NCBI RefSeq assembly: GCF_024347075.1
Contig: NZ_AP024901.1
Location: 558,001-622,000, forward strand
Source of the DNA: Vibrio rarus
GTDB lineage: Bacteria > Pseudomonadota > Gammaproteobacteria > Enterobacterales > Vibrionaceae
Direction: 5' to 3'
Length of the DNA: 64,000 bases
Positions within the stretch are counted from its first letter, which is position 1. Every line of letters begins with the position of its first letter. Positions 7,603 to 31,742 of this stretch are shown here, piece after piece. Position numbers and translations under genes: made by a program. The notes beneath the pieces were generated by a model. It had not been told where the DNA came from. It did no database searches and was given only the letters and a program-made list of their open reading frames with translations.

Positions 7603-7611
7603 GGGTCTATT

Positions 7612-11767: not shown

Positions 11768-12004
11768 ATGGCTACTACAAGCGTTAGACTTGATGAGAGC
11801 CTAGTAGATAGAGCTGCAACCATTGGAACAGCTTTAAATCGAACGACCCCCAAGCAAATTGAGCATTGGGCGAAAATAGGCAAGATCATGGAGGATAACC
11901 CTGACTTAACCTACGAGTTCGTACTGCAGGCAATCATCGCTAAAGCCGAATTAGAGCACGGGAATACGACCTCTTATGAATTTAGCGAAAGTAACAAAGA
12001 TTGA
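11768..12004 (+). CDS. ParD-like antitoxin
   Basis: A 78-residue protein that opens with the ribbon-helix-helix pattern TTSVRLDESLVDRAATIGTALNRTTPKQIEHWAKIGKIMEDNPDLTYEFVLQAI, matching the ParD-like (DUF3423) antitoxin group. AAGG lies about 8 bp before ATG 11768. The gene overlaps the toxin gene by 29 bp, so translation is tightly coupled. It would bind the toxin and repress its own promoter. Confidence 0.8.
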   Translation: MATTSVRLDESLVDRAATIGTALNRTTPKQIEHWAKIGKIMEDNPDLTYEFVLQAIIAKAELEHGNTTSYEFSESNKD

Positions 12005-12278
12005 GCAAACTACGACATTTGCCAAGACCGTAAAAAAGCTACACAAAAACCAGAAACAAGATCTAGATAAAGCAGTGAAAGAGGTTATAGAAAACCCTTT
12101 TATTGGCGTGATGAAGAAAGGCGATTTGTCTTTTCTTAGGGTGCACAAGTTTAAGATGAACAAGCAGCTCACCTTGCTTGGGTACAACTACGATGAAGAC
12201 GGGACGTTAGTCCTGACCTTATTGGCGTTGGGCAGTCATGAAAACTTTTATCGAGATGCATCCAGAACATTTAGATAA
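11976..12278 (+). CDS. RelE/ParE-family toxin
   Basis: A 100-residue RelE/ParE superfamily protein. N-terminal helices ('TTFAKTVKKLHKNQKQDLDKAVKEVIENPFIG') precede a beta-sheet ('DLSFLRVHKFKMNKQLTLLGYNYDEDGTLVLTLLALGSHENFYRD'), the family's usual order. The C-terminal SHENFY is typical of the chromosomal relE-like set paired with ParD-like antitoxins. These toxins act on translating ribosomes or gyrase; which one applies cannot be told here. A strong terminator follows 3 bp after the stop, so the pair is a self-contained unit. Confidence 0.85.
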   Translation: MNLAKVTKIEQTTTFAKTVKKLHKNQKQDLDKAVKEVIENPFIGVMKKGDLSFLRVHKFKMNKQLTLLGYNYDEDGTLVLTLLALGSHENFYRDASRTFR

Positions 12279-12505: not shown

Positions 12506-13168
12506 TTAGAGACTGCCATCGCTTGATAATCGACGATCAAAGCGCTCCACAGCTAAGACTCGCATATCGTTGGCGACCAAAAGGTCGCAGTGAGCGGTGG
12601 GTAACTCCCCTATCGGCAACTTAATGATGTGAGTGGTAGGTGTTAGCCCTTTAGGAATATTCCAACAACCGTTATGCCAAAGCAGCGCGGTCTTTTCTTG
12701 CTGACCCGCAATCGAGATTCGAAAGTCGTCCTGTTCATCAATCATGCCCAACGGTGCATCCGAGAGATAACCTTTCAAAACCGCTTCTACCTCATCATCA
12801 GTCAGCGGTTTAGCATCAATGATCGTATGGTCAGGGATGGGCTCATCTTCTGGCAATAAAGTGATCGCTCCTACTGCGTCTCGTCCCACCTTTGCTAACA
12901 GATCGAAGGGTTGTGTGGTCGAGGCTTGGTGACGCGCCACAATTCTATCGCGTACTGCTGGGTTGTCAGGTAAGAGGTTGTCAAAAAAGTTGAAAACTTC
13001 ATCACCCTCAAAGCGGTCGCTTCGCAATGGTAACGACAGAGAGATTGGGCGACGACCTCGTTGTGTCAACCACGTCTCACTGTAGACAAACGAATGAGCA
13101 CCATTACTCGCCTTACTTAACGTGCCAACGCGCAGACCGTTCATCAAAACAGTCAGGTTGCTCACCAT
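12506..13168 (-). pseudogene. HipA kinase, C-terminally truncated (second hip locus)
   Basis: The first 220 residues of a classical E. coli-type HipA of about 440: N-terminal subdomain, then RISIAGQQEKTALL (regulatory Ser about 152), IPKGLTPTTHIIKLP (ATP-binding region) and AVERFDRR. The frame stops just after this with TAA, so the catalytic Asp and the NxDxHxKN loop are absent. No remaining C-terminal sequence is visible in 12309-12505. It cannot be an active kinase. The ATG overlaps the hipB stop by 7 bp. The surviving repressor could still bind its operators. Confidence 0.85.
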
Positions 13169-13416
13169 TCCAAGTCCTCACCACTCAGGTTGGATTCAGA
13201 GGTAGCCCCTTTAGGAAGAATGTGCACCTCAAGGCCCAGTGAGTTCAGTAACTTGAATACGGTTTCTATAGAGGTAGTGTCCTGTTTATTTTCAAACTCG
13301 GACACAGTGGCCTGGCGCATACCAACCTTGGCGGCCGCTTCACCTTGCGACACGCATTGCATTTTTCGCTGTTCCCGAACAAATGAAGCGAGCGCCTTAG
13401 GACTATTGACGTACAT
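13162..13416 (-). CDS. hipB: HipB-type XRE repressor (second hip locus)
   Basis: An 84-residue XRE protein ('LASFVREQRKMQCVSQGEAAAKVGMRQATVSEFENKQDTTSIETVFKLLNSLGLEVHIL'), close in layout to E. coli HipB. I start it at ATG 13416 because GGAAAGG lies just upstream; an in-frame ATG at 13449 would place an operator inside the coding sequence. Three TATAC-N8-GTATA boxes upstream match the known HipB operator form. Its partner kinase is truncated, so it may act as an orphan repressor. Confidence 0.85.
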   Translation of the reverse strand: MYVNSPKALASFVREQRKMQCVSQGEAAAKVGMRQATVSEFENKQDTTSIETVFKLLNSLGLEVHILPKGATSESNLSGEDLEW

Positions 13417-13425
13417 ATCCTTTCC

Positions 13426-13499
13426 TATACTGACTTGCGTATAAAACATAGTTTATACTCTAGTCAGTATATACCCTTTAATATACTAACTAGAGTATA
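13426..13499. promoter_or_regulatory. Three HipB operators TATAC-N8-GTATA at exact 28-bp spacing
   Basis: Boxes at 13426-13443, 13454-13471 and 13482-13499, all with perfect TATAC/GTATA arms and an 8-bp centre. The E. coli HipB box is TATCC-N8-GGATA, so only the inner arm base differs. The first box abuts the hipB Shine-Dalgarno sequence. Confidence 0.85.
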
Positions 13500-14626: not shown

Positions 14627-15295
14627 TCACTTTGGTTGTTTCAACACTTTTATATTTGCCGCCGCAAGATAGTCTTCACGAAATATTGCAGATTCCAACA
14701 TTTTCTCAGGCACCTTTAAACGCAGCACCGTTCCTGAACGAATCACCACTTTACTGACGGGGCTGTTGATAAAGGTGATATCACCCTTTTTTAGAGTTAT
14801 ACCTGCACCCAATATAGGCGTATTATTCACTCTCATTCCTTTGACTGTATCATAACCGAATACGGTCAAGCTTCTACCAAGGTGTGACAGGGTTTCTTTG
14901 AACTCAACTTCAACTAGCTTCTGTCTGGATTTTACGATCTTTTTCAAGTGCTCAACTTTGTCTTTGACTGAGGACGAAAAGACCCATTCTTTTATAATAG
15001 GCTCCCACTTTCCCCCTAATCGTAAACACTCTTTGTAGGTGAGCGCATTCTTTTTTCCAGCTTTCAGCGTACAGATCTCTATCGAGTCTTGCTCTGAGAG
15101 CGGAAGGGTAAGCCTGAACACTGCGTCATGAGCAAAGTGGACATACCTATCTGTGATCTCTTCGACATGAAGCCTGTGCTTACCTGCCGTTAGGTCCCTA
15201 CTGAAATCATCGATGATAATGCGACAATGACTTCTACCGTCAACTCTGCATCGAAAGTACCCTTCGCCTTCTTCAAGAACTTCGAAATCACGCAT
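14627..15295 (-). CDS. Hypothetical protein of a three-gene replication-like module
   Basis: A 222-residue protein that I do not recognise. It is soluble and strand-rich at the N-terminus ('GYFRCRVDGRSHCRIIIDDFSRDLTAGKHRLHVEEI'), with a central helical stretch ('SSVKDKVEHLKKIVKSRQKLVEVEFKETLSHLG') and a basic C-terminus. Its ATG overlaps the stop of the upstream gene by one base (TGATG), so the two are translationally coupled. The neighbours look loosely like phage O and P replication proteins, so a DNA-handling role is possible, but nothing in the sequence shows it. Confidence 0.5.
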   Translation of the reverse strand: MRDFEVLEEGEGYFRCRVDGRSHCRIIIDDFSRDLTAGKHRLHVEEITDRYVHFAHDAVFRLTLPLSEQDSIEICTLKAGKKNALTYKECLRLGGKWEPIIKEWVFSSSVKDKVEHLKKIVKSRQKLVEVEFKETLSHLGRSLTVFGYDTVKGMRVNNTPILGAGITLKKGDITFINSPVSKVVIRSGTVLRLKVPEKMLESAIFREDYLAAANIKVLKQPK

Positions 15296-16233
15296 CAGGT
15301 TGGATCCACATTGTCTGTAGGCCCGGTATGTGAATGGCCAAAATGTTTGACCTCTTCATCACTGAGTTCCTCTACATCAACGTGACTTTTACTCAACATC
15401 GCTTGTATGCGACTCCCTAAAGGACCATCAAACGCCCGTCCCTCAGAGATGAGTTTATCCACCTTCTGATCGTGTTTGGACTCATTAGAGGCATGCACGT
15501 ACTGGTTGGTCTCGCGTTGTTTCTCTTCAAGTCTAATATCCATGTCATCGAAGATCACATCCCTAAACCACTGAATGTATTTACGATTAAACTCTTTTTC
15601 AAAGTATTTCTCGGAAAGGCTTTTGACTTCCCGCATTTTATGTTTTTTGACAAATCGCTCTACACGATCCAACTCAGCCGTAGGAACCGGCGAATGGAAA
15701 AGGCGTTGCCTAGCTTGATACATTACCTCTTTGGTCGGGGAGTTAGCCAACTGCCTTAGCCGAACCAATGATGGTGGCCACTCTCGATCTTCATCTAAAC
15801 GTTCGAGCAGATTATCATGCAGACGTACGCAAGCATCAGGAGTCAATTCGGTGGCAAAGCGCATAAAATGCTTGTCTGGCTCCTCCCCAAAATAATGCTT
15901 CATCTTTGAGTCAAACGCTTGCAACAGCATTGACCAGATGCGTAATATCTGCTCGCTTTGACCACGCCTATGGTATTCATCAAAGATCCTTTGAGCGTTA
16001 GGGTTCGATAAACCTCGACGGTTAGAAGGATTATATTTAAATTCTGTCGTTCTGTTTCGATTTGCTGCTGGTGAATTCTGGTTACGAATGCCATAACTCG
16101 TCGCATTCGACTCTCTCACCTTTCCAACCGAGGATTGCTTAGACTGCTTTCCAACATTAGTTAAATGCTCTTCAAAGGACGTACCTATAACGTCACTCAC
16201 TTTTTTTATTTTATCGCGGTCATTATTATTCAT
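15295..16233 (-). CDS. Protein loosely like phage replication P / helicase loader
   Basis: 312 residues. The first about 75 are low-complexity and Asn/Ser/Arg-rich. Residues about 80-170 ('QRIFDEYHRRGQSEQILRIWSMLLQAFDSK...FMRFATEL...EDREWPPSLVRLRQLA') have the spacing of lambda P-like proteins (W-x-x-L...F...L...WPPS). Family resemblance is judged by eye and weak. The gene follows the winged-helix protein (49-bp gap) and is coupled to the next one. The order winged-helix protein then P-like protein is that of phage O-P pairs, which recruit and load DnaB at an origin. Confidence 0.45.
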   Translation of the reverse strand: MNNNDRDKIKKVSDVIGTSFEEHLTNVGKQSKQSSVGKVRESNATSYGIRNQNSPAANRNRTTEFKYNPSNRRGLSNPNAQRIFDEYHRRGQSEQILRIWSMLLQAFDSKMKHYFGEEPDKHFMRFATELTPDACVRLHDNLLERLDEDREWPPSLVRLRQLANSPTKEVMYQARQRLFHSPVPTAELDRVERFVKKHKMREVKSLSEKYFEKEFNRKYIQWFRDVIFDDMDIRLEEKQRETNQYVHASNESKHDQKVDKLISEGRAFDGPLGSRIQAMLSKSHVDVEELSDEEVKHFGHSHTGPTDNVDPT

Positions 16234-16282
16234 CGTGAATCACTTAGTAATATCTAAAGTACAAAAAGTTAGCGTGAACCGA

Positions 16283-17026
16283 TTAATCATCAAACTCATC
16301 GGTCGTGTAATAGTCTCTAAACCTTTCTTCAAATTCACTCATAGCCGATTGTTTCGCTGGTCGAGAATATGGATGGTTAGCGCCACCGGACAGTCGTGAT
16401 TGTTTATAAAAACTGATTTTCTGATACAGTCGGTTTATTAGCTGACTAAGCGTGAAAATTTCATCATCTGACTCATGCACGTCTTTCACTAACGATCTCC
16501 ATATCTCAGTATCGCCACCCATGCCCATCTTGAACAAGATCGCCTCGGCCCAATCATGAACCTCTTGCTCGTGAATCTGGATTTTATGAAAAGTCTTTTC
16601 TTTAGCCAATTTATCTAAAGGGGCGACTTGAGCCCTTTGGCTGCGGCTCAACCGACCTTTTTGAGGTTGTCTATTAAAATTATCTCTTTGTGTTTGCGCT
16701 TGAGCATATAAATCAGGAACAGGAGGCGCCGTTTGCGGTGAAATCATCGCGTTATTTTCTAAGTGCAAGCTTCCCTCAACGTTATTGCTGTTGTTATTCA
16801 TTCGACGGCTACTCAAACTAATTACCTTGATATGATTACTAGATAAATGATGAAGTATCGTACTGGTTGCACCGCTACTAATACCAGTTAACGACTTAAG
16901 CTCAGCATATGTAGTTTGGAAGTTGCCATTTCTATCGGCCAGCTCTGCCAAAGCCATTAATAAAAACTTGCTTTCACCTACTACTGCTTTTAGGTCCCAA
17001 ACCATACTGGTCATCTTGCTCGACAT
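16283..17026 (-). CDS. Winged-helix protein, possible O-like replication initiator
   Basis: I start it at ATG 17026, preceded by GAGGG at 7 bp; the open frame extends to 17194 but upstream starts lack a ribosome-binding site. About 247 residues: an N-terminal winged helix ('VWDLKAVVGESKFLLMALAELADRNGNFQTTYAELKSLTGISSGATSTILHHLSSNHIKVI'), then a polar linker and a helical C-terminus. The layout resembles phage O-type initiators or MarR-like regulators. It heads a three-gene minus-strand operon. Codon use and context fit an integrated phage or plasmid module; no origin iterons were found. Confidence 0.5.
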   Translation of the reverse strand: MSSKMTSMVWDLKAVVGESKFLLMALAELADRNGNFQTTYAELKSLTGISSGATSTILHHLSSNHIKVISLSSRRMNNNSNNVEGSLHLENNAMISPQTAPPVPDLYAQAQTQRDNFNRQPQKGRLSRSQRAQVAPLDKLAKEKTFHKIQIHEQEVHDWAEAILFKMGMGGDTEIWRSLVKDVHESDDEIFTLSQLINRLYQKISFYKQSRLSGGANHPYSRPAKQSAMSEFEERFRDYYTTDEFDD

Positions 17027-17296
17027 TCTATAACCCTCTAACGAACTCATAGTTAAATTATCGTCGAGTCGAGATGGATTAGCAATGAGTTGTGCACTCT
17101 GAAACTTTGGCTTCTTTAGATAAAAGAGCGTTTTCATAAAAGCAATGTAGAAAACCGAGTGTACCAGACAAACCCAAGTGTTTCTTGCAGCCAATTCTTA
17201 CACACAAAAATGCCCATTACTATTTTATCCAAGGCATTACTTAATAAAGGCATGAGGTGCAATTGCGTTCACCATAGTTCAACGGCCTATCATTGA

Positions 17297-17870: not shown

Positions 17871-18176
17871 ATGGCTAAGCGTAATTTGCACAATGTACTG
17901 TTTCCAAAGCAGCGCAAAATCCTGACTCATTTTGGTGAAGACCTGCTGTTGGCGATGAAACGACGTGGTTTTACAAAGAAGCTGCTGTGTGAACGTACTG
18001 GATTTGATCATAAAACGGTGAACAAAGTCTTCGCAGGTGATCCTGGCGTTGCCATAGGCACTTACTTAAAGGTTATGGCCGTTCTTGGCATGGAGAGTAA
18101 TTTTGCAGAAGTGGCCGCCCATGATGAGGTGGGTATCAAGCTGCAAAATATAAAATTACTGGAAGGTTCAAGATGA
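17871..18176 (+). CDS. HipB-like XRE repressor (third hip locus)
   Basis: A 101-residue XRE-family protein ('FGEDLLLAMKRRGFTKKLLCERTGFDHKTVNKVFAGDPGVAIGTYLKVMAVLGM'), of a type usually found immediately before hipA. Its stop overlaps the next ATG by 4 bp (ATGA). The promoter carries three GGGA-N6-TCCC dyads. It appears intact although its partner is truncated. Confidence 0.75.
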   Translation: MAKRNLHNVLFPKQRKILTHFGEDLLLAMKRRGFTKKLLCERTGFDHKTVNKVFAGDPGVAIGTYLKVMAVLGMESNFAEVAAHDEVGIKLQNIKLLEGSR

Positions 18177-18469
18177 GCCGTGAAATCGTTGAAGTCTATG
18201 CCGACTGGCTGCCAATGGAAGCGCCTTTGCTAATAGGGAAGCTTGCTTACAGCGATTCAAGCAGGGGTGGCGTGTTTAGTTTTACCTACGATAAAGTATT
18301 TTTAACTTCAGCCTATCGCTTGCAAATTGATCCAATCCTGACGCTTCACTCCGGTGAACTCTACAACGATGAAGCCGATAAAAACTTTCGTGCATTTCTC
18401 GATTCATCGCCTGATAGATGGTGGAGTCGTGCACTTTGGTATCGCATTGACAATGTCTTCGTTAACTAA
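18173..18469 (+). pseudogene. HipA N-terminal fragment (third hip locus)
   Basis: 98 codons matching only the HipA N-terminal subdomain: EVYADWLPMEAPLLIGKLAYSDSSRGGVFSFTYD, then DPILTLHSGELYNDEADKNFRAFLDSSPDRWWSR. In full-length members the last motif is followed by GR and about 300 more residues including the kinase core. Here the frame diverges after WWSR and stops. No downstream kinase sequence is present; the TacAT locus follows at once on the other strand. Non-functional as a kinase. Confidence 0.8.
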
Positions 18470-18483
18470 AAGCGAGCGGTTAA

Positions 18484-18981
18484 CTAACCTAAGCTTTCTC
18501 TAACATCTGAGATAGTAATAAAAAGCTTATTTTCTGTATCACTAAACGCCTGAAATCCATATCTTTCATAAAAGTCTTTTGCACCATCTTTAGCATCAAC
18601 AATCACGACTGGAAACGCAACGCTGTCGCTCGCAGCTACCAGCTTTCTTAGTGCATCAATAAGTAACCACTCACCAAAACCTCTCGCTTGATATCGATTG
18701 TCAACAGCCAGGCGAGCGATAAGGCCACCCGATGTCGAAGAATGGTGCTTTTCTTGTAGCCTATCGGGTAATGCCTTTAAGTCAATTGGTGTCATTGTGA
18801 GTGTATAAAAGCCGATGATATGTGAATTGTTTCTATCATCTTCCAATACGAAAGTTCTAGTATTGTCTTTTTTTGCTTGTTGACTCGCCATCACCTTTAA
18901 ATAGTTATTTAGCTCATCGATACCACAGTTGAACCGGTTTCTATCGTGTTTAGCTTTATCGAGAAGCACCGAGTTCATCAT
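18484..18981 (-). CDS. tacT: TacT-like GNAT acetyltransferase toxin
   Basis: A 165-residue GNAT toxin. Seen: the N-terminal 'FNCGIDELNNYLKVMASQQAKKDNTRTFVLEDD' typical of the class; the acetyl-CoA motif region 'GGLIARLAVDNRYQARGFGEWLLIDALRK' (R/QxxGxG/A-like, here QARGFG); and the catalytic Tyr in FYERYGFQAF. TacT enzymes acetylate the amino group of aminoacyl-tRNA and stop translation. The gene overlaps its antitoxin by 4 bp and is probably functional. Confidence 0.88.
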   Translation of the reverse strand: MMNSVLLDKAKHDRNRFNCGIDELNNYLKVMASQQAKKDNTRTFVLEDDRNNSHIIGFYTLTMTPIDLKALPDRLQEKHHSSTSGGLIARLAVDNRYQARGFGEWLLIDALRKLVAASDSVAFPVVIVDAKDGAKDFYERYGFQAFSDTENKLFITISDVRESLG

Positions 18982-19250
18982 TGTGTTTTATTCTCGTACC
19001 GATCAGACGCTGCTTTCAATTTGGCATTCGATTTAGCTGGACGATCTAGGGCATCCATCAACAGCATCGCGTCAGCCTGACTCAATTTTAAAGCCTGCTC
19101 ACGCTCAATCACTTGTTTGGCTTTTTCAATTGCCGCACTCAATACAAAAGAGTTGATACTGGACATACCGGCTATTGCCGCAGCCTTGGTCAGCAAGTCT
19201 TGGGTATCGACATCCACCCGAGCAGTAATACGAGGTAAAGTAGTGGCCAT
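18978..19250 (-). CDS. tacA: TacA-like DUF1778 antitoxin
   Basis: A 90-residue ribbon-helix-helix protein ('PRITARVDVDTQDLLTKAAAIAGMSSINSFVLSAAIEKAKQVIEREQALKLSQADAMLLMDALDRP'), the standard DUF1778 antitoxin of TacT-type toxins. The N-terminus binds DNA and the C-terminus wraps the toxin. Two matching quasi-palindromes (19266-19280, 19321-19335) upstream fit a repressor-site pair. Confidence 0.88.
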   Translation of the reverse strand: MATTLPRITARVDVDTQDLLTKAAAIAGMSSINSFVLSAAIEKAKQVIEREQALKLSQADAMLLMDALDRPAKSNAKLKAASDRYENKTQ

Positions 19251-19335: not shown

Positions 19336-19561
19336 CTATTTCAAACCACTCTATTTCCAAAGAACAGATCATTTCCCTCAACCTAAATACTGTCTGGCTC
19401 AGACTCTCGTAAATTACCGGGTATATTACCAATTATTCTATAAGTTTATTTTTATATAACCATGTATACCTAATTATATTATACGGCCCTCTACACCTCT
19501 AAAGCCTTATACCACAAGCCCTAACATCTTCATCTATTTGTCAAAACCCTCTCACTCCCCC

Positions 19562-19579
19562 CGATTTTGGAAATAAAAA
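19562..19579 (+). repeat. Left 18-bp terminal direct repeat (putative att core)
   Basis: CGATTTTGGAAATAAAAA. It contains ATTTT and AAAAT/AAAA arms around a 7-bp centre (GGAAATA), the usual architecture of a tyrosine-recombinase crossover site. A partial echo, ATTTTGGTAAT, lies at 19589-19599. Confidence 0.65.
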
Positions 19580-19603
19580 TTCACTGATATTTTGGTAATG
19601 AAC

Positions 19604-19633
19604 TCCCCAAAAGATTCCACGTCTTTGGGGAAG
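19604..19633. other. Imperfect stem-loop just inside the left end of the element
   Basis: TCCCCAAAAGA and TCTTTGGGGAAG flank TTCCACG. Only one bulged base separates this from a perfect stem. It lies between the end repeat and the first gene and could be a terminator of incoming transcription, a leader structure, or a recombinase-related single-strand fold. Confidence 0.4.
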
Positions 19634-19667
19634 TCACGAATCCAATCAGCTGACCAAGGAGGGTGTA

Positions 19668-21245
19668 ATGAGCAAATTCACTGCACAACAAAAACGAAAT
19701 CGCGGCAACAACAGTGGCGGGGTTGCGCCTGATGCGCAGCGCATTGCCACCACCCTGGCCATTGCACTGCATCGTATTCATCGCAAAGGCGATTCTGATA
19801 CGGTTCGTAAACGCAAAGTTGTTACGTTTCTGACTTGGTGGCTGACGCATGAGCTGATTAATAGTGACAACATTGCGCACCTTCCAACACTCACACGCGT
19901 GACTGGCAAGGCTCAATGTGAGGCGCATACGCTAAGGCCTGTGCGCACCAACAATGTCACTAGAGTGGAATACGCCCTCTGCTATCTCCATAAGGGGGGC
20001 TCTGAATATTTATGGCAGCCCATTCCTGATGCGTTTAATGCGCTATTTGTGGACGCCTTGTCATCGAGTTCAGGGGCATTGCTCACGGATAAACAGCATC
20101 AAGCGCTGTGCGAGGATCTGTCTCGCAAGTGGAAAACGCTAGGGAAGCTCGCCTGTTACCCTCGCGTGAGAAAAGATCGCTTGTTTCGCTATTGGATGCA
20201 CATGGGGCAAAGCGATTCTAAACTCTCTACCATTGCAAAAAGCGTGATGCTACCGCGTCATCAAGACCACCATCATCAAGCGAAGTCGTACCAACGAGAA
20301 ACCAGCGATCAGATACGCTTTAAGGTATTTGAGGCGCACAATCGTTATTTCAAACGCATTACGGATGCAATCCGTCTGTATGAGTTAACGGAGTTCTTTG
20401 GCTTTGTGTTTAAGCCAGAGACAAAGAAACCGGATTATCTAAAACACAGTGGCACCATTGCGCAACTTGAGCGAGTGCAAACCAACGGCACCTATGTGTA
20501 TAAACCCATTGCGCCCATTGTGATGGGTTCTGACAGAGCGCTGTCGGTGGACGATACACGGCAGTTTTTTCATGTGCTCGCCGATAGCGTCAGTGAGGCG
20601 TATCGCACTGTGTCGACGCCAGAGGGGCTCAGACACTATTACAATCTGCGCACCTATCAAATCACGTTTCAGTTTTTAATCCTGACCGGCGTGAGGCCCA
20701 CGCATGCCATTTCAATAGACGCGAGCCAGTGTTATGACTGCCGCCACGCTATGGTGTTCGACAAAGGGCGCTATCGCACTGTGTGGCTGTGTGATTTCTT
20801 CTCACAGGCCCTTAAAGCGTACTTAGCTTTGCAACACGTTGTGTGTCTGCACCTATCACTGACCCCAAACACCTTGTGTCTTTGGTACCTGCTGGATGAG
20901 AATTTCAAGGCGCAGCCACTCACGGCCAAAACCGTTCGACTGGCAATGCAGTCGTTTTCACCCGATGCGTCTGTGGTGCCTTATCAGCTTCGCCATACCT
21001 TTGCACAAATGGCGTTGACCGCAACCCTACCGACTCTATCCACGCAACTGATCGACCGCTTAATGGGGCACAGTGAGTTTGGTGAGCACTTAGGCAATGA
21101 GCACCGCTTTCCGGCGAGCCAGCACATTGCCCAAGACCACTTGAATCGGCTTGCCCATCAGCTAGGGCTCGATTCGCCTAGCACGTTCAGAAACACCCTA
21201 AACCAAAGCACATCTCACACCTGCGAGGCCCATCATGAAGAATAA
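19668..21245 (+). CDS. Tyrosine-recombinase-fold protein lacking the nucleophile (Tfp-like)
   Basis: 525 residues with an excellent AGGAGG-type ribosome-binding site. The C-terminal third is recognisably tyrosine-recombinase-like: LILTGVRPTHA (Arg343, box I), VPYQLRHTFAQM (box II, Arg442, with Tyr439 where His is more usual) and LIDRLMGHSEFGEHLG (His468). After GH there is no Tyr within the normal 9-11 residues (GEHLGNEHRFPASQH), so it should not cleave DNA. The first about 300 residues are basic and helical and probably bind DNA. It likely works as a structural partner of the next protein, whose start it overlaps by 11 bp. A catalytic Tyr placed elsewhere cannot be excluded. Confidence 0.75.
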   Translation: MSKFTAQQKRNRGNNSGGVAPDAQRIATTLAIALHRIHRKGDSDTVRKRKVVTFLTWWLTHELINSDNIAHLPTLTRVTGKAQCEAHTLRPVRTNNVTRVEYALCYLHKGGSEYLWQPIPDAFNALFVDALSSSSGALLTDKQHQALCEDLSRKWKTLGKLACYPRVRKDRLFRYWMHMGQSDSKLSTIAKSVMLPRHQDHHHQAKSYQRETSDQIRFKVFEAHNRYFKRITDAIRLYELTEFFGFVFKPETKKPDYLKHSGTIAQLERVQTNGTYVYKPIAPIVMGSDRALSVDDTRQFFHVLADSVSEAYRTVSTPEGLRHYYNLRTYQITFQFLILTGVRPTHAISIDASQCYDCRHAMVFDKGRYRTVWLCDFFSQALKAYLALQHVVCLHLSLTPNTLCLWYLLDENFKAQPLTAKTVRLAMQSFSPDASVVPYQLRHTFAQMALTATLPTLSTQLIDRLMGHSEFGEHLGNEHRFPASQHIAQDHLNRLAHQLGLDSPSTFRNTLNQSTSHTCEAHHEE

Positions 21246-24138
21246 AGGATTAACCGTGAGCCATATTCAAGATCACCTTCATAACATGGGGCTCGAGGCG
21301 CTAGATAGCGCTCACTATGACACGATCATTGAGCAGATTGCGCTCTATAGCGACACCTCTCGTGTGCTCACTCAAGCCTCGCTTGACCCCATTCAAGCGA
21401 CGATCAAGAGCACCTTTGGGGGACGTCAACGCCTGCTAAAGCGCGCGCTCAATCATGTGTTGCTCTATCTTGAGCAAGTGTGCCAATGGCAACTGCCAGA
21501 GCAAAAGGCGCATGTGTATCGAGATCACAAGCATCAGTGGTTGGTGCAGGTGATGAAGCATGCCCAATTAGGCGGCGCATTATTTGGGCACTATCAACGT
21601 GCGCCTTGGGCCGAGCGCGTCAAAACTCTATCGGCGTGTGAGCTCATCTCACTGCTCGCCATCGAAGTGGCTCCACTTCCTTTGGCGACGTGGCTGGCCG
21701 TGCTGCGCCGTGACCGTAGTAAGAGCAAGGGCAAGGGCAAGGGCAAAAAACCTCGCATCGAAGTCATCGACGATAGGCTCACACTGGCTCTTTGGCACCC
21801 TATCAAGCACAAACAGCAACTGCTTAGCTTTACGCGCTACGCTTTAACGCCTGTCGCGTACGTGGCACTGCAGCACTATTGGCGACGCAGACAACCTTCG
21901 CACCGCGTCTCTGAGCCCGCCTTGTTAGCGGGCCTTGATGACATGGTGCGTGCGCTGGTGCCTGGCAATCCACTGCTCGCACGCACTTATGCTAAGCCCA
22001 TAACAGCGAGACAGTGGCATTTGGCGATGCAGGCCATTTGGCATTGCAAGCATCAGTACCCGCCAGAGCTACTCTTTGATATGGCAGTGCCGAGCCGTCA
22101 CTGCGCGTTTCATCCTGTGCTGCCTAGCAAGGCGCATACCCGAGAGGCGTTAAAACAGCTGTATGTGTTACCTCGCCACGCGAATTCTAGTGGGTCTGTG
22201 CCCAGTGCGAGAAAACGCGGCGCACAGTGGCCCCATCGTGCCTTGTTAAAACGATCAAAAGATGAGCCAAGGGCGAGTCTTAAGGCGCAGCTCGCCGCAG
22301 AGTCGCCGATAGAATGGCCCTTCGATGACGTTGTGCCCGCCTTGATGTATCTGTTTACCCGTGAGTTGATTGTGCATGGCGGCGCAATTTGTCCTAATCT
22401 GGGTCATAACACTTTGTACAAATACACTGGCATTTATTCAAAGCTACCCCGCCCGCTGTCGTACCTTGAGGCGAGCGATCCTCATAAACTCGATGATTGG
22501 GCCAAAACCGCGTTCGAGTCACAAGAGAATGAGGCGCAGCAATGGTTGGTGTACAACTTCCTTCGCAGTGTGTCGCAGCAAGCCCTGACCGATCATTTGG
22601 ATGTCAGTCAGTTTGAGTGCCCTACTCTGCCAAAGAATGTCGATGCCTATAGGCTGCGAACCGATCACGTGCATCACGCGGCGCATCATCTTCTGGAAAG
22701 TGACCACGGCACTCATTTGCAACGCTTGTGCAGCGCAGTAGCATTGCTGCTTGGTTTTTACGGTGCACTTCGCCGCGGAGAAGTGCTTAGGCTTCGCCTG
22801 CAAGATGTGATGCGCCCCTCGGCCACCGGTACGCAATTTCGCCTGAATATTACGCAAACCCTTGAGGGAAAAACCAAGAACAGGCAATCGCGGTTTGTGT
22901 TCGTGGTCATGCCTGAAAGCGCGGCCAACTTAGTGGCGCTTCTCATTCAAATCAAACAGTCTTGCGCACCGCACACCCCGCTCATCGGCTTTGAAGGTGA
23001 AACCTTAAGCTCAAGGGAGCGTCACTATCTGTATCCAGTGACGCAAGTGCTCAAAGCGCTGTATGGCAATCAGGTGCGTTTTCATCACCTGCGCCATTCC
23101 GGGGCGCACCTTTTGTTTTTACAAGGGATAAGCCTTGCGTGCGACTTTCACTCGCATGCCCATTGCGATGGCATGAGTGAAGAGCTGCTGACCAAGGAGG
23201 CGTGCGAGGCCCGCTTTGCTTTTTGGCTCGAAGAGAAACCGTTCTCACAGATGAACGATGGCATTTTACTCGATGTGATGAGTGATCAGCTCGGTCATCG
23301 CTATTACGCCACGACTCGCCAGAGTTATCTGCACGGCGCGGAGTGGCTTCCTGAGTGTTTCTCTCACCCCAAAGCGTATAAAATTTGCGCACTGCAAGCC
23401 CTATTAGGTAAACGCACTGCGGCCTATTTGCTGTCACATCCCAAGGTAGCGAAGCAGCTTAGCCAAGCGCCGAGCGGGCAGGATGTCGTGACGCTAAGCC
23501 AGAACATGCTGATCGACGCGCTACTGACAACACCCTCAGGGCGACGTCTTCGTTACTACTACGCGCCCGATACACCCGCCATTTACGGCAGTAACGAATT
23601 GGTCAGAGAGTGGGACAATCGCGCGCTGTATAACTCGTATCAAACCCATTACGCCAGCGCTCGCGCGAAAGGGGTAACCGCGCTTGACTGGCAAACCCGT
23701 GAGCTGCTTACCGCCCTTCAAGACGGCAGTGAGCGCTTTAGCGACATCAGTGTGTTTTGGCAGCGATGCGGCCAGCATCGCTCGTTTGGGCTCTCAAACC
23801 GACAGCGCACCGCGCTGTGCGAGCTGGGTCCAATCACAGTGACAGGGGCGCGCACCTTTACCGTGAGCTTTGCGTGCAATCAAAAAAACAGTGAAGCCTT
23901 TAACGCGCTGTTTCGCAGCCATTTATTGGCGTGCTTTGATGTGTCGTTTCATCTGGCGCAAAACCGAAAGCAGCCTCCAGAGCGAAAGCTTGCGCTGATT
24001 AAAAGGCGTTACGCCAGAGGCTCTGAGCCCATTACGGTAGAGACCGTGCCTTGTGGCAGCAGCCGCTTTACCGTGACCTTCACCTTCACGTTGCACAGTC
24101 CATTACTGTTTGACTTCATCATTCACTCTCTTACTTAA
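21235..24138 (+). CDS. Large tyrosine recombinase, complete active site (IntB-like)
   Basis: 967 residues, two to three times the usual size. The catalytic domain is at about 470-705: LLLGFYGALRRGEVLRLRL (Arg513), VRFHHLRHSGAHLL (His617, Arg620), SDQLGHRYYATTRQSYLH (His688, nucleophile Tyr698). A Lys-rich patch KSKGKGKGKKPR lies at about 163-174 in the long N-terminal part. Some 260 residues follow the Tyr, ending in repeated strand-like blocks ('ARTFTVSFACNQKNSEAFNALFRSHLLACFDVSF' and 'SSRFTVTFTFTLHSPLLFDFIIHSL'). A C-terminal extension of this size is unusual. It should cut and join the element's ends, probably with the preceding protein. Confidence 0.85.
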   Translation: MKNKGLTVSHIQDHLHNMGLEALDSAHYDTIIEQIALYSDTSRVLTQASLDPIQATIKSTFGGRQRLLKRALNHVLLYLEQVCQWQLPEQKAHVYRDHKHQWLVQVMKHAQLGGALFGHYQRAPWAERVKTLSACELISLLAIEVAPLPLATWLAVLRRDRSKSKGKGKGKKPRIEVIDDRLTLALWHPIKHKQQLLSFTRYALTPVAYVALQHYWRRRQPSHRVSEPALLAGLDDMVRALVPGNPLLARTYAKPITARQWHLAMQAIWHCKHQYPPELLFDMAVPSRHCAFHPVLPSKAHTREALKQLYVLPRHANSSGSVPSARKRGAQWPHRALLKRSKDEPRASLKAQLAAESPIEWPFDDVVPALMYLFTRELIVHGGAICPNLGHNTLYKYTGIYSKLPRPLSYLEASDPHKLDDWAKTAFESQENEAQQWLVYNFLRSVSQQALTDHLDVSQFECPTLPKNVDAYRLRTDHVHHAAHHLLESDHGTHLQRLCSAVALLLGFYGALRRGEVLRLRLQDVMRPSATGTQFRLNITQTLEGKTKNRQSRFVFVVMPESAANLVALLIQIKQSCAPHTPLIGFEGETLSSRERHYLYPVTQVLKALYGNQVRFHHLRHSGAHLLFLQGISLACDFHSHAHCDGMSEELLTKEACEARFAFWLEEKPFSQMNDGILLDVMSDQLGHRYYATTRQSYLHGAEWLPECFSHPKAYKICALQALLGKRTAAYLLSHPKVAKQLSQAPSGQDVVTLSQNMLIDALLTTPSGRRLRYYYAPDTPAIYGSNELVREWDNRALYNSYQTHYASARAKGVTALDWQTRELLTALQDGSERFSDISVFWQRCGQHRSFGLSNRQRTALCELGPITVTGARTFTVSFACNQKNSEAFNALFRSHLLACFDVSFHLAQNRKQPPERKLALIKRRYARGSEPITVETVPCGSSRFTVTFTFTLHSPLLFDFIIHSLT

Positions 24139-24147
24139 GGTGGTCTT

Positions 24148-25359
24148 ATGCTTACATTTCATTCCCAGTATCACGTGCAGCTTAAAGCGTTTGTGGAGTC
24201 CCTTAACCTTAAGGGCCCTGAAAGTGGCGTCACCTTTGTGGTGGATCGCAAGGCGAGCACCTTGATCCTCATTGCCGGCTGCGCGTCGCACCTGCATATG
24301 ATCGCCTTGACTATTGATGATGAGTGCAGCCTGAAAACCGGGAAATTCACCATCAATGCCAGCTTGTTTAAAATGTTTTGCCAGCCACTGTTTGAGAGCT
24401 GTACCCGAGCGGAGTCCATTCATCTGAATGTGGAATATCAAAACCGCCGACTGCCGATGCTAACCATGATGGTGAACCAGACAACCTGGCGTGATGCGCA
24501 GGCCATACCGGCCAATGACACCCATCTTGAACTGTTAAAGACGGTGCAAAGCGCCGGGTTTGAGCTCGTCTCAAAATGCTGGCTTGAAAGCGCGCTCAGT
24601 CACACCCTCGCCCACCCTGCACTGTCACTCTTTAGGCTCAATCATCGCAAGGAGCAATTAGAGATCATCAGCGAGCAGACGCTGCATACTTTCGACGTGC
24701 CGTATCAAAATAACCCCAGTATTGATCTGCAGGTGGATAACGCCAGTGTCGCGGGGTTAAAAGCGCTGTGTCGCCACTCTCGCGCTCACGGCATTTATGT
24801 GTGCGTCGATAGCGAGGTGGCGTATTTCTCCGATGAGATCACCACTGTGTGTTTTGCGCTGCACTTTGATGAGGCGGATATCAAGGCTAAGCCCATTCAA
24901 TACCGTATGGAGTCGACATTTAGCGTACATGCGGGCGAGCTCACCGCGTACAGCAAAGTCGATACCTTGCATCAGCAAAACCAAACCTCGCTGTATGTGT
25001 CGCCAGAGGGCATTTTGATTGGCAGTGCCACCGATAAAGAAGCCTGTCATAGGCTGTTTGAAAACAAAGTCCCGTCAAACAATGCGCCAATGCTCTATAG
25101 CCTGAGAGCCACCGAGTTTAAACAGGCGCTGTCGCAGTACAGAAAACTCTCCACCAGAGAGGTGTATCTGCAAGTGCTGCTTGCCCCTGATGGCAGTCGT
25201 GTCTTGGGGCTGTATAAAGACACCGGCGCAGAGCATCCTTATTCGACGGTGGCGATTGAGTTAAGCCCGCAAGGGTTAGCGTCCATCGAGGAGACCATTG
25301 AATACCATCAAAGCATGAAACCGGCGCAAAAGGATCTGTTTAGCGACTTTAACGATTAA
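24148..25359 (+). CDS. Element-encoded protein with C-terminal beta-clamp-binding motif (Hp1-like)
   Basis: 403 residues, start at ATG 24148 after AAGGTGG; 9 bp after the recombinase gene, so the third gene of one operon. I do not recognise a family. The body is strand-rich with alternating hydrophobics, in repeated units such as KFTINASLFKMFCQPLFES...IHLNVEYQNRRLPMLTMMV and ATEFKQALSQYRKLSTREVYLQVLLAPDGSRVLGLY. These are faintly reminiscent of sliding-clamp folds; that is only an impression. The tail KPAQKDLFSDFND contains QKDLF (394-398), matching the QxDLF consensus for binding the replicative sliding clamp DnaN. This would tie the element to replication forks. Confidence 0.6.
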   Translation: MLTFHSQYHVQLKAFVESLNLKGPESGVTFVVDRKASTLILIAGCASHLHMIALTIDDECSLKTGKFTINASLFKMFCQPLFESCTRAESIHLNVEYQNRRLPMLTMMVNQTTWRDAQAIPANDTHLELLKTVQSAGFELVSKCWLESALSHTLAHPALSLFRLNHRKEQLEIISEQTLHTFDVPYQNNPSIDLQVDNASVAGLKALCRHSRAHGIYVCVDSEVAYFSDEITTVCFALHFDEADIKAKPIQYRMESTFSVHAGELTAYSKVDTLHQQNQTSLYVSPEGILIGSATDKEACHRLFENKVPSNNAPMLYSLRATEFKQALSQYRKLSTREVYLQVLLAPDGSRVLGLYKDTGAEHPYSTVAIELSPQGLASIEETIEYHQSMKPAQKDLFSDFND

Positions 25360-25382
25360 CTATAAAAACAAAGGCTTAGTGT

Positions 25383-25400
25383 CGATTTTGGAAATAAAAA
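25383..25400 (+). repeat. Right 18-bp terminal direct repeat (putative att core)
   Basis: Identical to 19562-19579, beginning 23 bp after the stop codon of the third gene. Flanking bases differ from the left copy on both sides, which puts the crossover region within these 18 bp. Confidence 0.65.
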
Positions 25401-25560
25401 GGCGATGTTAGGCTAGAGGTAAAAATAGAAAAGAAGCAGGAGGGCTATCTAAAAGAGAAAGTGAAAAGTGAAAGAAGAAAAGAGAAAACTCGCAGTTGGA
25501 GAGAAGTGGCGGCCACCACTTCCCTCCGTACCGGCTGCAGGAACTTTAAACCAGAACCAG

Positions 25561-25591
25561 CCGATGGATAAATTCTAACGAATGCCATCGG
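25561..25591. repeat. Inverted repeat upstream of the integrase gene
   Basis: CCGATGG (25561-25567) and CCATCGG (25585-25591), perfect 7-bp arms, 33 bp before the integrase start. It could be an operator or an accessory integrase site. A purine-rich stretch (about 25405-25495) precedes it; nothing else is seen between 25401 and 25623. Confidence 0.35.
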
Positions 25592-25623
25592 TTTAGGGTA
25601 GCACTTAATTGATGGAGGCCATT

Positions 25624-26787
25624 ATGGCTCACATTCGTATCCGTCCGAATGGACGCATTCAGTTTGATTTACACCTTTATGGGACGCGTTTTCGCGAAGG
25701 CACTAAGATGATGGCAACGCCAAGTAACCTTGCCAAGGCCAAAGCCATGCTTAAACGCATGAACGCGGAGATAGACTTAAATTGCTTTGAGTACCGCGAT
25801 TATTTTCCGCACAGCAAAAAGGTTGCCAAATTCGAGCTTTTGCAGCGTGGCAAACACCCCGACCGTTTGTACCCTTTCTTTGAGGACTTCGCGAAAGAGT
25901 GGTACCAGCGCCAAATTCCTAAGTGGAAATCCAGCTATCAAAACACCATGCGCAACATTCTGGAGCGTTACTTGATCCCCGAATTTGGTAATACGCTGAT
26001 GAGTGAGTTTACGCTGGCCAAAGTGGATTTTTATCGCAATCAATTGATGGAAGACACCAAGCCTGACGGCACAAGACGACTGTCGAATCGCCGTATTAAC
26101 AGCATCTTATGGCCCATCATTGCCATGGTGGGACTGGCCGCTGACGAATTTAAATTTGAGTATCCGCTTCGTCGCTATCGCGCACTAAAGGAAGAAAAGG
26201 CCAACTCGAAACCGCTCACCATTGCCGAAGTGAAGCGCTTTTTAGCTGCGGTGGATGAGAAGTGGAGAGATTACTTTATTTTGCGCTTTTGGACAGGCAT
26301 GCGCAGTTGTGAGGTGCATGGTCTTTTATGGAAGTACGTGGATTTTGACCATCGCCTCATTCAAGTCAGGCATAACTATGTCAATGGGGAGCTGTGTGAT
26401 GTGAAAACGCCTAAATCAAGACGTGATTTGAAGATGTGTGATGCGCTGTTTGCGGCATTGAAACGTCAACAAACGCGCTGTGACGTTGACAGTGACTATG
26501 TATTTACCAATGACAAAGGATTGCCATTAGATACTCATTGGATAAGTAAAGGCGTTTGGTATCCCACGCTGAAAAAAGCCGGACTTGCCAAACGTAGAGC
26601 CTACGAAACGCGTCATACGGCGGCGGTGCTTCATATTGCGGCCCTAGAAAACCCGCTCTATATTTCACAGATGCTTGGGCACAGCGATACGCAACTACTG
26701 TTTGAGGTGTATGCCCCTTATGTCGCCAATGCTTCGCGAAATGACGGCAGTGCGTTTAATGCATTGATGAATAAAGAAGGGCTTTAG
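25624..26787 (+). CDS. Phage-type site-specific integrase (tyrosine recombinase)
   Basis: About 387 residues from ATG 25624, chosen because GGAGG sits 7 bp upstream; earlier in-frame TTG/ATG codons overlap that site. The N-terminus 'HIRIRPNGRIQFDLHLYGTRFREGTKMMAT' is an arm-binding domain of the DUF3596 type found in phage and island integrases. Catalytic residues: Arg in FWTGMRSCEVHGLLW, box II RAYETRHTAAVLH (Tyr in place of the first His, common in this group), QMLGHSD, and the nucleophile Tyr in FEVYAPYV. It is complete. It lies outside the direct repeats of the preceding element, at the boundary with the capsule locus, so it may have mobilised a larger island. No attL/attR pair for it was identified. 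Confidence 0.85.
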   Translation: MAHIRIRPNGRIQFDLHLYGTRFREGTKMMATPSNLAKAKAMLKRMNAEIDLNCFEYRDYFPHSKKVAKFELLQRGKHPDRLYPFFEDFAKEWYQRQIPKWKSSYQNTMRNILERYLIPEFGNTLMSEFTLAKVDFYRNQLMEDTKPDGTRRLSNRRINSILWPIIAMVGLAADEFKFEYPLRRYRALKEEKANSKPLTIAEVKRFLAAVDEKWRDYFILRFWTGMRSCEVHGLLWKYVDFDHRLIQVRHNYVNGELCDVKTPKSRRDLKMCDALFAALKRQQTRCDVDSDYVFTNDKGLPLDTHWISKGVWYPTLKKAGLAKRRAYETRHTAAVLHIAALENPLYISQMLGHSDTQLLFEVYAPYVANASRNDGSAFNALMNKEGL

Positions 26788-26862: not shown

Positions 26863-27001
26863 GGAAGAGTGAAACATTAGCTGTCAGATCGGTTTTAAAT
26901 TTGTTTAAGCTCTTTCGTTTAAGCCTGCTACGTCGTCAATTGATAAATTAATTAATGGCATTGGTATTACAAACCTATATTGCATAATATTGTACTAAAA
27001 A

Positions 27002-29242: not shown

Positions 29243-29789
29243 TTAATCACTGCCAAATAAGTCACGTGTGTACACTTTTTCGGCAACGTCTTTGATTTCA
29301 TTTACCATGCGGTTAGAAACGATGACATCACAGCTTGATTTGAACTCTTCTAATGACTTGATGACTTTTGAATTGAAGAATGTAGCCTCATCCAAGACTG
29401 GTTCATACACAACAACTTCAATGCCTTTGGCTTTAAGGCGTTTCATGATTCCTTGAATGCTAGACGCTCTAAAATTGTCAGAACCAGACTTCATAATCAA
29501 ACGATAGATACCTATAACTTTAGGGCTACGCTTTAAAATAGAATCAGCAATAAAGTCTTTACGAGTAGTGTTTGAATCAACGATTGCACCAATAATATTA
29601 TTTGGCACATCTGCATAGTTTGCACGCAACTGTTTAGTATCTTTAGGTAAGCAATAACCACCATAACCAAATGAAGGGTTATTGTAATGGTTGCCAATAC
29701 GAGGATCTAAACCAACACCCTCGATTATTTGACGAGCATCTAATCCTAATGATTCAGCATAACTGTCCAGTTCATTAAAATAAGACACC
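29243..29789 (-). pseudogene. ugd: UDP-glucose 6-dehydrogenase, C-terminal part (split by ISAs1)
   Basis: The C-terminal half of Ugd: [32 protein letters not shown], then [18 protein letters not shown], which contains the catalytic Cys (GGxCxPKD), then the C-terminal Rossmann-like NAD domain ending TRDLFGSD. It is separated from the N-terminal half (31113-31742) by a complete ISAs1 with a 10-bp target duplication (29780-29789 and 31113-31122). A short IS-derived leader ([10 protein letters not shown]) could give a start codon, but the NAD-binding domain is on the other side. Confidence 0.9.
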
Positions 29790-31112
29790 CACGGAAAAAT
29801 CACGAACATCCCCGTCAATAAAGGCTTGCCAGAACCTTCAAAAGGTACTCAGAATCCATCGCACACATCGCTCTTTTGTGCTTAATACTCGCTTTCAAAG
29901 TCGTTTCACTCTTCAGCATGTTCAAACACATCTGTCTGATCCTTGCAAAGTTCTCTGCACTTTCTTCTGCCCGTTTTCGGCACGCGTCTTCACCAAATGT
30001 CGTATCGAGAGACCAATGCATCGACTCGACCAACCAATGTGAACGCGTTGCATTTAACAATTCCTTAGCATTTAAATCTTTCGAGCTAATGTAGTATCTC
30101 ACTGTGATTTCTGACTCTTTCGCCACTGTTTCCTCTTGTCTAACAGAAACGACGATACCCATTGTTTTTAGCTCTGGCCAGTCAAACGCCAAATCACCTA
30201 AAACACTTAAATCCGTGTTCGTTAATGCCAACCTGGTTTCTTGTCTACCTCGGGATTTTTCTTGCGTGCTGTAAGAGTCGCCATCGTGTTTTTGGAGCAT
30301 GTTCATATCGAAATAATTATCGAATGCTTGCTCCAAACGACCTTGATTTCCTTTTACCGCCAACAAATAATCTGCGTTTTTGTTTAGTATTTTTTGAGCG
30401 ATTTTCTTTTGGCATCCCATAGCATCAATAGTGACCAAGCAGCCTGATATATCAAGCAGTTCGAGCAACTCTGGAATAGCGGTGATCTCGTTGGATTTTT
30501 CGTAAACTTTGTGTTGTCCGAGACTAACGCCATTTTCAGTCGCAAAAGCGTTCACCATGTGAATTGCGCCAAGACCGCGAGAGTCATCATAAGAGCCCCT
30601 GACAGTCTTACCATCAATGGCTATCACTTCACCTTTGGTTAACTCACAGCAATCTTTCATCCACTCAATGAAGCATTTTTGAAGTCGAGTCGCACTAATC
30701 ATACCCATCGTTCTAGCTATCGTCGAAGTAGATGGAACACCATGACTAAAATCGCCAAATCGCTTCAAGAAATCCAACTTAGCTTCACCGTAAAGACTAA
30801 TCGCCTTCCAGTCATCTTGACCAGAAAGCACAGCACAAATTGTTAACAGAATGATATCAGTTAACTTGTGCTCGACTTTGCCTTGTTGTCGGTAATCTGG
30901 AATGACATCGAAATGCATAAATGGGTGCTGGTTACTCATTGTTGGACCTCCAATTTATCTATGGAGGTATTAGATAACACTGAAAATGATCTACAAATCG
31001 ATCATCAGATCATTGATTGTTATGTGATAACGCTAACGAATGAAGTTCAAAAATTGTGAACTCAATACGTCACGAAGCCTTTAAACATGGGCATCTACAT
31101 GATTTTTCCCTG
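29790..31112 (-). mobile_element. ISAs1-family element, copy 1 (inserted in ugd)
   Basis: A complete 1323-bp element with ends CACGGAAAAATCACG (left) and, inverted, CAGGGAAAAATCATG (right). It is flanked by direct repeats ATAAGACACC at 29780-29789 and 31113-31122, showing a simple insertion that has not been rearranged. It carries one 374-residue transposase on the minus strand. Sequence variant A (see the array entry). Confidence 0.92.
29815..30939 (-). CDS. ISAs1-family transposase (copy 1)
   Basis: 374 residues. The N-terminal DDE_Tnp_1-associated domain ([37 protein letters not shown]) is the mark of ISAs1 / H-repeat proteins. The catalytic core includes [28 protein letters not shown] and [19 protein letters not shown] (third acidic residue region). 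Identical in length to four other complete copies in the window, so recently active. Confidence 0.93.
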
Positions 31113-31742
31113 ATAAGACACCCGCATAGCTAAATAAGTATTGGAGAATAATTTAATTCCCTCTGCTTCAGTTGAGTCAGTGAACAACACTTTTATGTCT
31201 TCTTTTACTGCACCTTCAACTAGGAGATCGGCAAAGACTTTTGCGCGTTCACTTTGCTCACCAACGATAATGCGAGAGGGATGCAAATTATCATACAAGG
31301 CACGACCTTCACGTAAAAACTCAGGAGAAAAGATTAAATTAGCACAGCCTAATTCCTCTTTAATACGAGCTGTATAACCAACAGGCACTGTGGACTTAAT
31401 GACCATAATGGCATTTGGATTAAATACCATTACATCTTTAATGACAGCCTCAACGGAAGATGTATTAAAGTAGTTGGTTTCCGGATCATAATCCGTAGGG
31501 GTAGCAATCACTACATACTCTGCATCACTATAGGCCAACTCTTTGTCTAAGGTAGCCGTGAAGTTTAAATCTTTATTCGCTAAGAAATCTGATATTTCTG
31601 CATCCACTATAGGTGATTGTCTATTGTTTAGAAGATCAATTTTCTCTTCGATGATATCTACAGCAGTAACTTAGTGGTTCTGAGATAACAACATAGCATT
31701 GGAAAGACCAACATATCCTGTACCGGCGATTGCAATTTTCAT
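31113..31742 (-). pseudogene. ugd: UDP-glucose 6-dehydrogenase, N-terminal part with in-frame stop
   Basis: Starts at ATG 31742 with the NAD-binding IAGTGYVGLSNAMLLSQNH. Next comes TAA (31671-31673) where a Glu or similar codon is expected, then [16 protein letters not shown] in the same frame. It continues through KSTVPVGYT and [25 protein letters not shown] to AMRVSY, where ISAs1 copy 1 begins. The gene is therefore broken twice, by a nonsense change at codon 24 and by the IS. Ugd oxidises UDP-glucose to UDP-glucuronate; this copy cannot. A second ugd elsewhere in the genome is possible. Confidence 0.9.

Follow-up and report, generated by a model that had tools for sequence, protein, structure and literature searches.

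A putative four-gene integrative element in Vibrio rarus with a swappable recombinase module that encodes a predicted beta-clamp fold

Two identical 18-mers enclose three co-directional genes in the genome of Vibrio rarus, and the locus raises the question of whether these repeats are the ends of a mobile unit or lie within a larger element. The window that we analyzed is a whole stretch of 64,000 nucleotides (NCBI RefSeq assembly GCF_024347075.1, contig NZ_AP024901.1, positions 558,001 to 622,000 of the forward strand), and all coordinates below count from its first base. A sequence-only reading of the window had proposed a self-contained recombinase element of 5.8 kb that was bounded by the 18-mers and resembled part of the strand-biased circularizing integrative elements (SEs) of Vibrio. 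Based on comparisons with related genomes, we conclude that the three genes and the integrase gene that follows them appear to be a four-gene integrative element with a swappable recombinase-clamp module, in a family unmatched by sequence to SEs. Our preferred reading, to which we give a probability of about 60%, is that this element has two modules, a clamp-carrying recombinase operon and a leader-intA unit, with the 18-mers as internal operators.

Gene content and gene order

The left 18-mer (CGATTTTGGAAATAAAAA; 19562-19579, + strand) is a putative operator or binding site 88 bp 5′ of the tfp start, and the right copy (25383-25400, + strand) lies in the gap between the third gene and intA. 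The 18-mer is not a common genomic repeat: the 3.88-Mb genome (3,877,193 bases on 3 contigs) holds exactly two copies, the only matches with fewer than three mismatches, and seven more matches with exactly three. Allowing up to three mismatches, one further match falls in the window, against a shuffle mean of 0.20. Between the copies are three + strand open reading frames (ORFs) of 525, 967, and 403 amino acids (aa), namely, tfp (19668-21245), encoding a tyrosine-recombinase-fold protein; intB (21235-24138), encoding a large tyrosine recombinase; and a clamp-like gene (24148-25359; hp1 in the sequence-only reading), encoding a protein with a predicted beta-sliding-clamp fold. The G+C content is 0.50 to 0.55 at 20 to 25 kb and about 0.39 to 0.47 on either side. 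Thus, the earlier description of a G+C-richer block with two identical 18-mers around three co-directional genes holds, but its statement that the locus is without intA is wrong. A structured leader (25492-25623, + strand) and intA (25609-26787, + strand) follow, the 392-aa integrase ORF beginning at TTG 25609, 208 bp past the right 18-mer, with a likely start at ATG 25624 and a DUF3596/Arm-DNA-bind_2 type product.

The three-gene set, for which a search in other genomes had been proposed, was found with intA behind it in the order tfp-intB-third gene-intA, all on one strand, in 29 of 40 rows. These rows are 33 loci from a genome scan, the window, and six loci of related genomes; L025 and L051 are the same contig, and L025 was left out of the distance correlations. 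The resulting 28 distinct loci fall in Vibrio, Photobacterium, Shewanella, Psychromonas, and Salinivibrio. The 11 other rows comprise L027 (tfp not found, split genes), L047 (intA not found), L049 (short contig), L054 (genes at both contig ends), and seven distant rows (L056 to L062). A search with IntB at E 0.001 hit 11 of 148 related genomes, a count that includes its own genome and weak matches. At E 1e-40, the IntB profile found 14 of 394 genomes in the order (3 of 114 genera), again counting its own.

Some loci depart from this order. L177, from Photobacterium (also the genus of L033), has intA, a 213-aa gene, a 157-aa gene, tfp, intB, and a clamp-family gene (62 bits), an intA-first order that is a circular permutation of the order in the window. 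L179, from another genus and more broken, has intA, tfp, intB, and then an unassigned 417-aa gene. Extra genes, one HipA-like, lie between the third gene and the leader in L138, as does a 404-aa gene in L149 (third gene named by position), and a further gene of about 193 to 201 aa is immediately 3′ of intA in L023, L024, L026, L027, L043, L053, and L055. A 104- to 212-aa gene precedes tfp in most clades other than that of the window (L023 to L025, L033 to L052, and L054); its product often ends in KKxxLAxxAxxSPSAIR, and the three tested gave no convincing Pfam family.

Element boundaries and insertion site

The shared block at 19496-26787 (+ strand) aligns with positions 8262-15565 of L032, on chromosome 2 of Vibrio inusitatus, at 93.1% DNA identity over 7306 columns and ends at the intA stop codon, giving the minimal extent of the element here. 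It starts 66 bp left of the left 18-mer and extends 1.39 kb past the right one. Because this conserved block passes both copies, the 18-mers are internal, and we rejected them as element ends. Other close pairs also break near the intA stop (L042/L044 at +3, L034/L039 at +4, and L041/L051 at +11); pairs that continue past intA do so for 75 bp (L042/L045), 730 bp (L046/L050), or 1.7 kb (L046/L052). In the flanks, remnants of the intA 3′ end lie in L030, L032, and L041 and remnants of the tfp 5′ end in L031 and L032, which suggests repeated insertion, as if elements had piled up at one place. Judged by eye, several relatives of the window element end near hairpins; SE-6945 reportedly sits immediately 3′ of a putative terminator (PMC9345347).

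Empty sites, also proposed as a check, were not recognized with either the right or the left flank in 329 genomes each; most left-flank matches covered only the first 86 or so bases, next to a TacA-like gene. A tRNA insertion site was rejected, as the window holds no tRNA. The right flank at about 26936-26969 recurs in other Vibrio genomes and was considered as a widespread attB. We dropped that reading because the copies in L163 and L164 are at the end of an ORF that is transposase-like by resemblance, and we read the segment as an insertion-sequence remnant. A 19.4-kb circular Shewanella record, pSA70-4 (L097; CP078041), carries element genes next to chromosome-like ones; we did not accept it as a free element circle, since these genes are fragmented or frameshifted and NnrS, nitrite reductase, and rfbB are annotated on it.

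Recombinases

The view that two of the proteins are tyrosine-recombinase-like stands on matches of Tfp (ORF1) to XerC (7.7e-7) and of IntB (ORF2) to Phage_integrase (0.001), both under the curated cut-offs. Only frames above the hidden Markov model score cut-offs entered the counts of catalytic residues and tails. Tfp has no tyrosine at the position of the IntB nucleophile, and its R343, R442, and H468 are invariant among 32 aligned rows. IntB has a complete catalytic set, R514, H617, R620, H688, and Y698 being invariant in 31 of 31 aligned rows; in L022 and L027, it is spread over two frames. IntA keeps its catalytic residues in 28 to 29 of 29 rows and scores 70 bits with PF12167 (cut-off, 22) and 50 bits with PF00589 (cut-off, 27.1), as expected of a DUF3596 (IntBPP-1) integrase, with a tyrosine in place of the first histidine of the box II motif. 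Homologues of about 66 to 77% identity occupy the equivalent place in six related genomes, an identity that in each genome exceeds that of each member of the three-gene set.

Predicted clamp fold of the third protein

The structure predicted for the 403-aa protein matches the three-domain beta-clamp fold over 335 residues, at 11% identity and a root mean square deviation (rmsd) of 5 to 6 Å. The clamp-binding-type tail that the sequence-only reading had picked out is present as QKDLF followed by the five C-terminal residues. With E values of up to 1 allowed, none of 13 homologues hit a DnaN Pfam family, and the profile of the third protein found no match by sequence among PDB chains. The protein is a predicted member of the fold that is unmatched to the DnaN family by sequence, and the host keeps its own dnaN.

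In a sister system (L094, L095, L132, L136, and L180), the leader and intA lie beside an oppositely oriented operon that encodes a 1000-aa IntB-like protein and a second clamp-like protein. All 50 of the Foldseek matches listed for the latter were beta clamps, which argues only weakly for the fold because the model has a mean predicted local distance difference test score of 49.7. By sequence, this second protein also matched a clamp, weakly and over part of its length (E 0.004), and hhalign gave no relation to the 403-aa family. Judged by titles and the starts of abstracts, with subscription journals mostly outside the coverage, we recognized no element-borne sliding clamp among the papers listed by the literature searches.

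Structured leader upstream of intA

The hairpin region in front of intA was recovered by a motif search in 31 of 44 sequences, and the 30 that were aligned show a covarying structure in which 93.5% of cells pair. Both sides had changed in 55 cells (17.3 in shuffles; standard deviation [SD], 3.1), and the covariation score was 0.182, compared with 0.093 (SD, 0.007) when shuffled and at most 0.079 when slid. Two measures were weaker: 9 pairs had changed on both sides, a number equalled or exceeded in 19 of 500 shuffles, and there were 14 further pair types, under the 17.8 of shuffles. The covariance model scores 132 bits at the window leader and has matches in 30 of the 329 genomes of the family, a count that includes the genome of the window. 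The leader also precedes the 55%-identical intA of L094 and L095, and the model matched at none of 19 loci of integrases that are 36 to 43% identical (L073 to L091). No known Rfam family was found at the gathering threshold, the matches being far under the gathering score with E of 4 to 8. Behind a strong leader copy in L130 (9777-9912; 136 bits) come a 207-aa gene and an integrase other than the usual intA (33 to 39% identical).

Within the 12-pair helix, 40 of 360 cells are non-Watson-Crick, and all are A.C on the intA strand, which is G.T on the other strand. The 24 further matches, six of them from genomes of the first set, gave 27 A.C versus 1 G.T. The sign is opposite elsewhere, with 60 G.T (in two invariant pairs) versus 1 in the outer helix and 9 G.T versus 1 in the second hairpin. 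Because A.C on the intA strand is G.T opposite, the 12-pair helix seems to be selected on the strand opposite intA.

Exchange of the recombinase-clamp module

Pairwise distances across the 28 loci, with broken genes represented by their best-scoring frame, correlate at r values of 0.97 to 0.98 among tfp, intB, and the third gene and at 0.51 to 0.53 between these genes and intA; none of 999 permutations reached these values. L039 shares 42 to 48% DNA identity with L046 and L050 in the three genes and 92 to 98% in the gap, leader, intA, and 300 bp beyond. As L039 and L050 have the same left flank (94% over 1769 bp) and the same right side (96.7% over 2177 bp) around unrelated modules, one Shewanella site has held two different modules. 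L038 and L052 share 42 to 48% identity over the module, 84% over the part of the gap that can be aligned, 98% over the leader, and 91% over intA and are unrelated beyond. L024 and L026 are 46 to 51% identical in the module, 52% in the gap, and then 91%, 88%, and 85%. Thus, tfp-intB-clamp is a swappable module. To this extent, the idea of a self-contained unit survives, the 18-mers not being its ends; the swaps fit a unit without implying recombination at the repeats.

An alternative refines that idea, taking tfp-intB-clamp as itself a mobile cassette that recombines at paired sites at its edges and parks before resident intA genes. The distances within the module, which track each other better than they track intA, and the exchange between L039 and L050 are what such a cassette would produce, as is a right breakpoint 17 bp (L039/L046 and L039/L050) or 11 bp (L038/L046 and L038/L052) left of the palindrome, described below, that stands in for the right 18-mer. 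However, the left breakpoint of L039/L050 falls 188 bp to the left of the palindrome on that side, the similarity between L024 and L026 resumes only at the leader and not at the palindrome, and the closest pair (the window and V. inusitatus) shares sequence outside both 18-mers. In L046/L052, the module, gap, and leader are 90 to 98% identical but intA only 83%. Homologous recombination between related elements would swap modules too, and we regard the mobile cassette as doubtful, although it fares best among the alternatives.

Paired sites in front of both transcription units

Within the five loci of the window clade, the right 18-mer is exact in four and the left one in three (the window, L022, and L032), whereas L030 and L031 have diverged left copies. 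Perfect inverted arms, CGATTTT...AAAATCG, are present at the right site in L022, L030, and L031. The 24 other loci scored have a palindrome-like CTGG-N8-[AC]CAG in the clamp-intA gap, and five related Shewanella loci (L034, L035, L036, L038, and L039) have a partner, CTGT-N8-ACAG, no more than 1.1 kb in front of tfp. In L034, L036, L038, and L039, the closest upstream sequence differs from the gap motif by 2 mismatches, versus 3 to 5 for the best of 30 shuffled motifs; in the remaining nonclade rows, the match is at or near chance. The paired sites read best as targets of one protein that would act on both transcription units. The gap box is LexA-like, taking the LexA consensus to be CTGT-N8-ACAG; LexA control was rejected, as the fourth base differs in 24 of 24 loci and the box is missing from the window clade.

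Proposed mechanism and its standing

On the preferred two-module reading, the first module would be a single operon for an inactive recombinase-fold Tfp, a large active IntB, and a clamp-fold protein with a clamp-binding-type tail, and the second would be the structured leader with an arm-binding phage-type integrase, IntA. The 18-mers would form an internal site pair, one per transcription unit, and would most likely serve as operators through which the two units are turned on together. IntA, aided by IntB and Tfp, would recombine the element ends, and the clamp homologue may dock on the host replisome, coupling recombination to DNA synthesis. Such coupling would suit a copy-out route as proposed for SEs, for which replication after single-strand exchange is suggested in PMC10214605. 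More tentatively, and with odds clearly below even, the element could represent a class with its own beta-clamp homologue, whose tail ties the intermediate of recombination to the replisome of the host and thereby makes copying part of integration or excision; the intA hairpin could then be a strand-specific start of synthesis or strand exchange. An element with a predicted clamp-fold protein may offer a direct handle on how multi-recombinase integrative elements are copied while no empty site is left behind, with DnaN as a candidate partner and with the swappable recombinase-clamp module and covarying leader as further testable parts.

Several observations weigh against this two-module reading. 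These comparisons yielded no left end, no circular form, and no empty site, and no exact match of at least 11 bp, direct or inverted, links the 1.2 kb upstream of tfp to the 1.5 kb downstream of intA. No upstream partner site lies within 1.5 kb in 19 of the 24 nonclade loci, and in one genome (G079; L093), an intA-like frame stands with none of the three genes close by. That intA is only loosely coupled to the module (r of about 0.5) suits two units no less than one. The clamp match comes from a predicted structure with a high rmsd and no solved chain found by profile, and strict QxDLF tails occur in only 14 of 32 clamps.

An improbable alternative is that the locus is a true SE or GInt (a ginABCD island) with permuted gene order and diverged proteins. 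The same kinds of parts are described in PMC10214605 and PMC5385486, and the order in L177 (intA, tfp, intB, and a fourth gene) points the same way. Against this, the gene order of the window differs, and Tfp, IntB, and the third protein showed no detectable similarity to their counterparts in the pAQU1 SE by hhalign (probabilities of 0.4%, 0.6%, and 0.1% for Tfp, IntB, and the 161-aa Srap); nor did IntA (BLASTP E 0.15), in a comparison whose sensitivity is limited by its use of one SE. SE membership by sequence is thus unsupported. Least probable of all is that the locus has decayed, no longer moves, and persists only as a hot spot among toxin-antitoxin and polysaccharide genes. The gene pieces in relatives' flanks, the split IntB frames, and the lack of recognized empty sites would fit such a relic, but the four open frames with conserved catalytic residues in the window and the near-identical elements with different right flanks argue against it.

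Surroundings of the element

Left of the element is a dense toxin-antitoxin-like run (4584-6151, 7306-8832, 11976-12278, 12506-13449, and 17871-19250) that includes HipA, HigB, ParE-like, truncated HipA, helix-turn-helix/HipA-N pair, and TacA-GNAT pair genes; relatives of the TacA-GNAT pair are also near the element in L030 and L041. Three minus-strand genes at 14627-17194 (222, 312, and 303 aa) had no Pfam match at E 0.01. The polysaccharide locus contains copies or pieces of a 374-aa transposase gene (29815-30939, 33143-34267, 45717-46841, 47186-48202, 48257-49381, 51667-52380, 52403-53527, and 53669-54124), the first of which separates the halves of a ugd-like gene (29243-29818 and 31095-31607). 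By raw count, 17 of 32 rows (window included; 16 of 31 distinct loci) have ugd, galU, an epimerase gene, or rml genes near the element.

Comparison with known systems

The resemblance to the tfp-intB-hp1 part of SEs, noted in the sequence-only reading, holds for the kit of parts and is unsupported by sequence. As described in PMC10214605 and PMC5385486, the SE and GInt kits pair a recombinase-fold protein that lacks catalytic residues with a large recombinase and add a second integrase plus a fourth gene. The window element is like SE-6945, SE-6283, and SE-Pda04Ya311 in all four and differs in its third gene, for a 403-aa protein of predicted clamp fold where the pAQU1 Srap has 161 aa, and in its DUF3596-type integrase, which comes last and behind a structured leader. 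SEs have the order intA-tfp-intB and then srap, whereas the window has tfp-intB-clamp-intA, the intA-first order appearing in L177 and L179. No exact inverted match of at least 11 bp corresponds to the 13- to 19-bp imperfect inverted end repeats of SEs, although imperfect ones would escape such a search. SEs are further characterized by strand-biased circularization that leaves no empty site and by a 6-bp footprint. Measured against the pAQU1 element, the locus appears SE-like in its kit of parts, but sequence does not support its being an SE.

GInts share the combination of several recombinase-type genes with a small partner, in islands that carry cargo. The window element is set apart from them by description, GInts starting with an operon at the 5′ end and having a small GinD (PMC5385486). 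For their 10- to 17-nucleotide imperfect direct border repeats, no exact 11-bp direct match was found, and shorter or imperfect ones would escape. The beta sliding clamp DnaN shares the three-domain fold of the predicted model over 335 residues, and the 403-aa protein differs from it in its 11% identity, in matching neither DnaN family nor profile, and in its linkage to recombinases. Finally, intA resembles IntBPP-1/DUF3596 phage-type integrases in carrying PF12167 and PF00589 and differs from them in being tied to a recombinase-clamp operon and a covarying leader.

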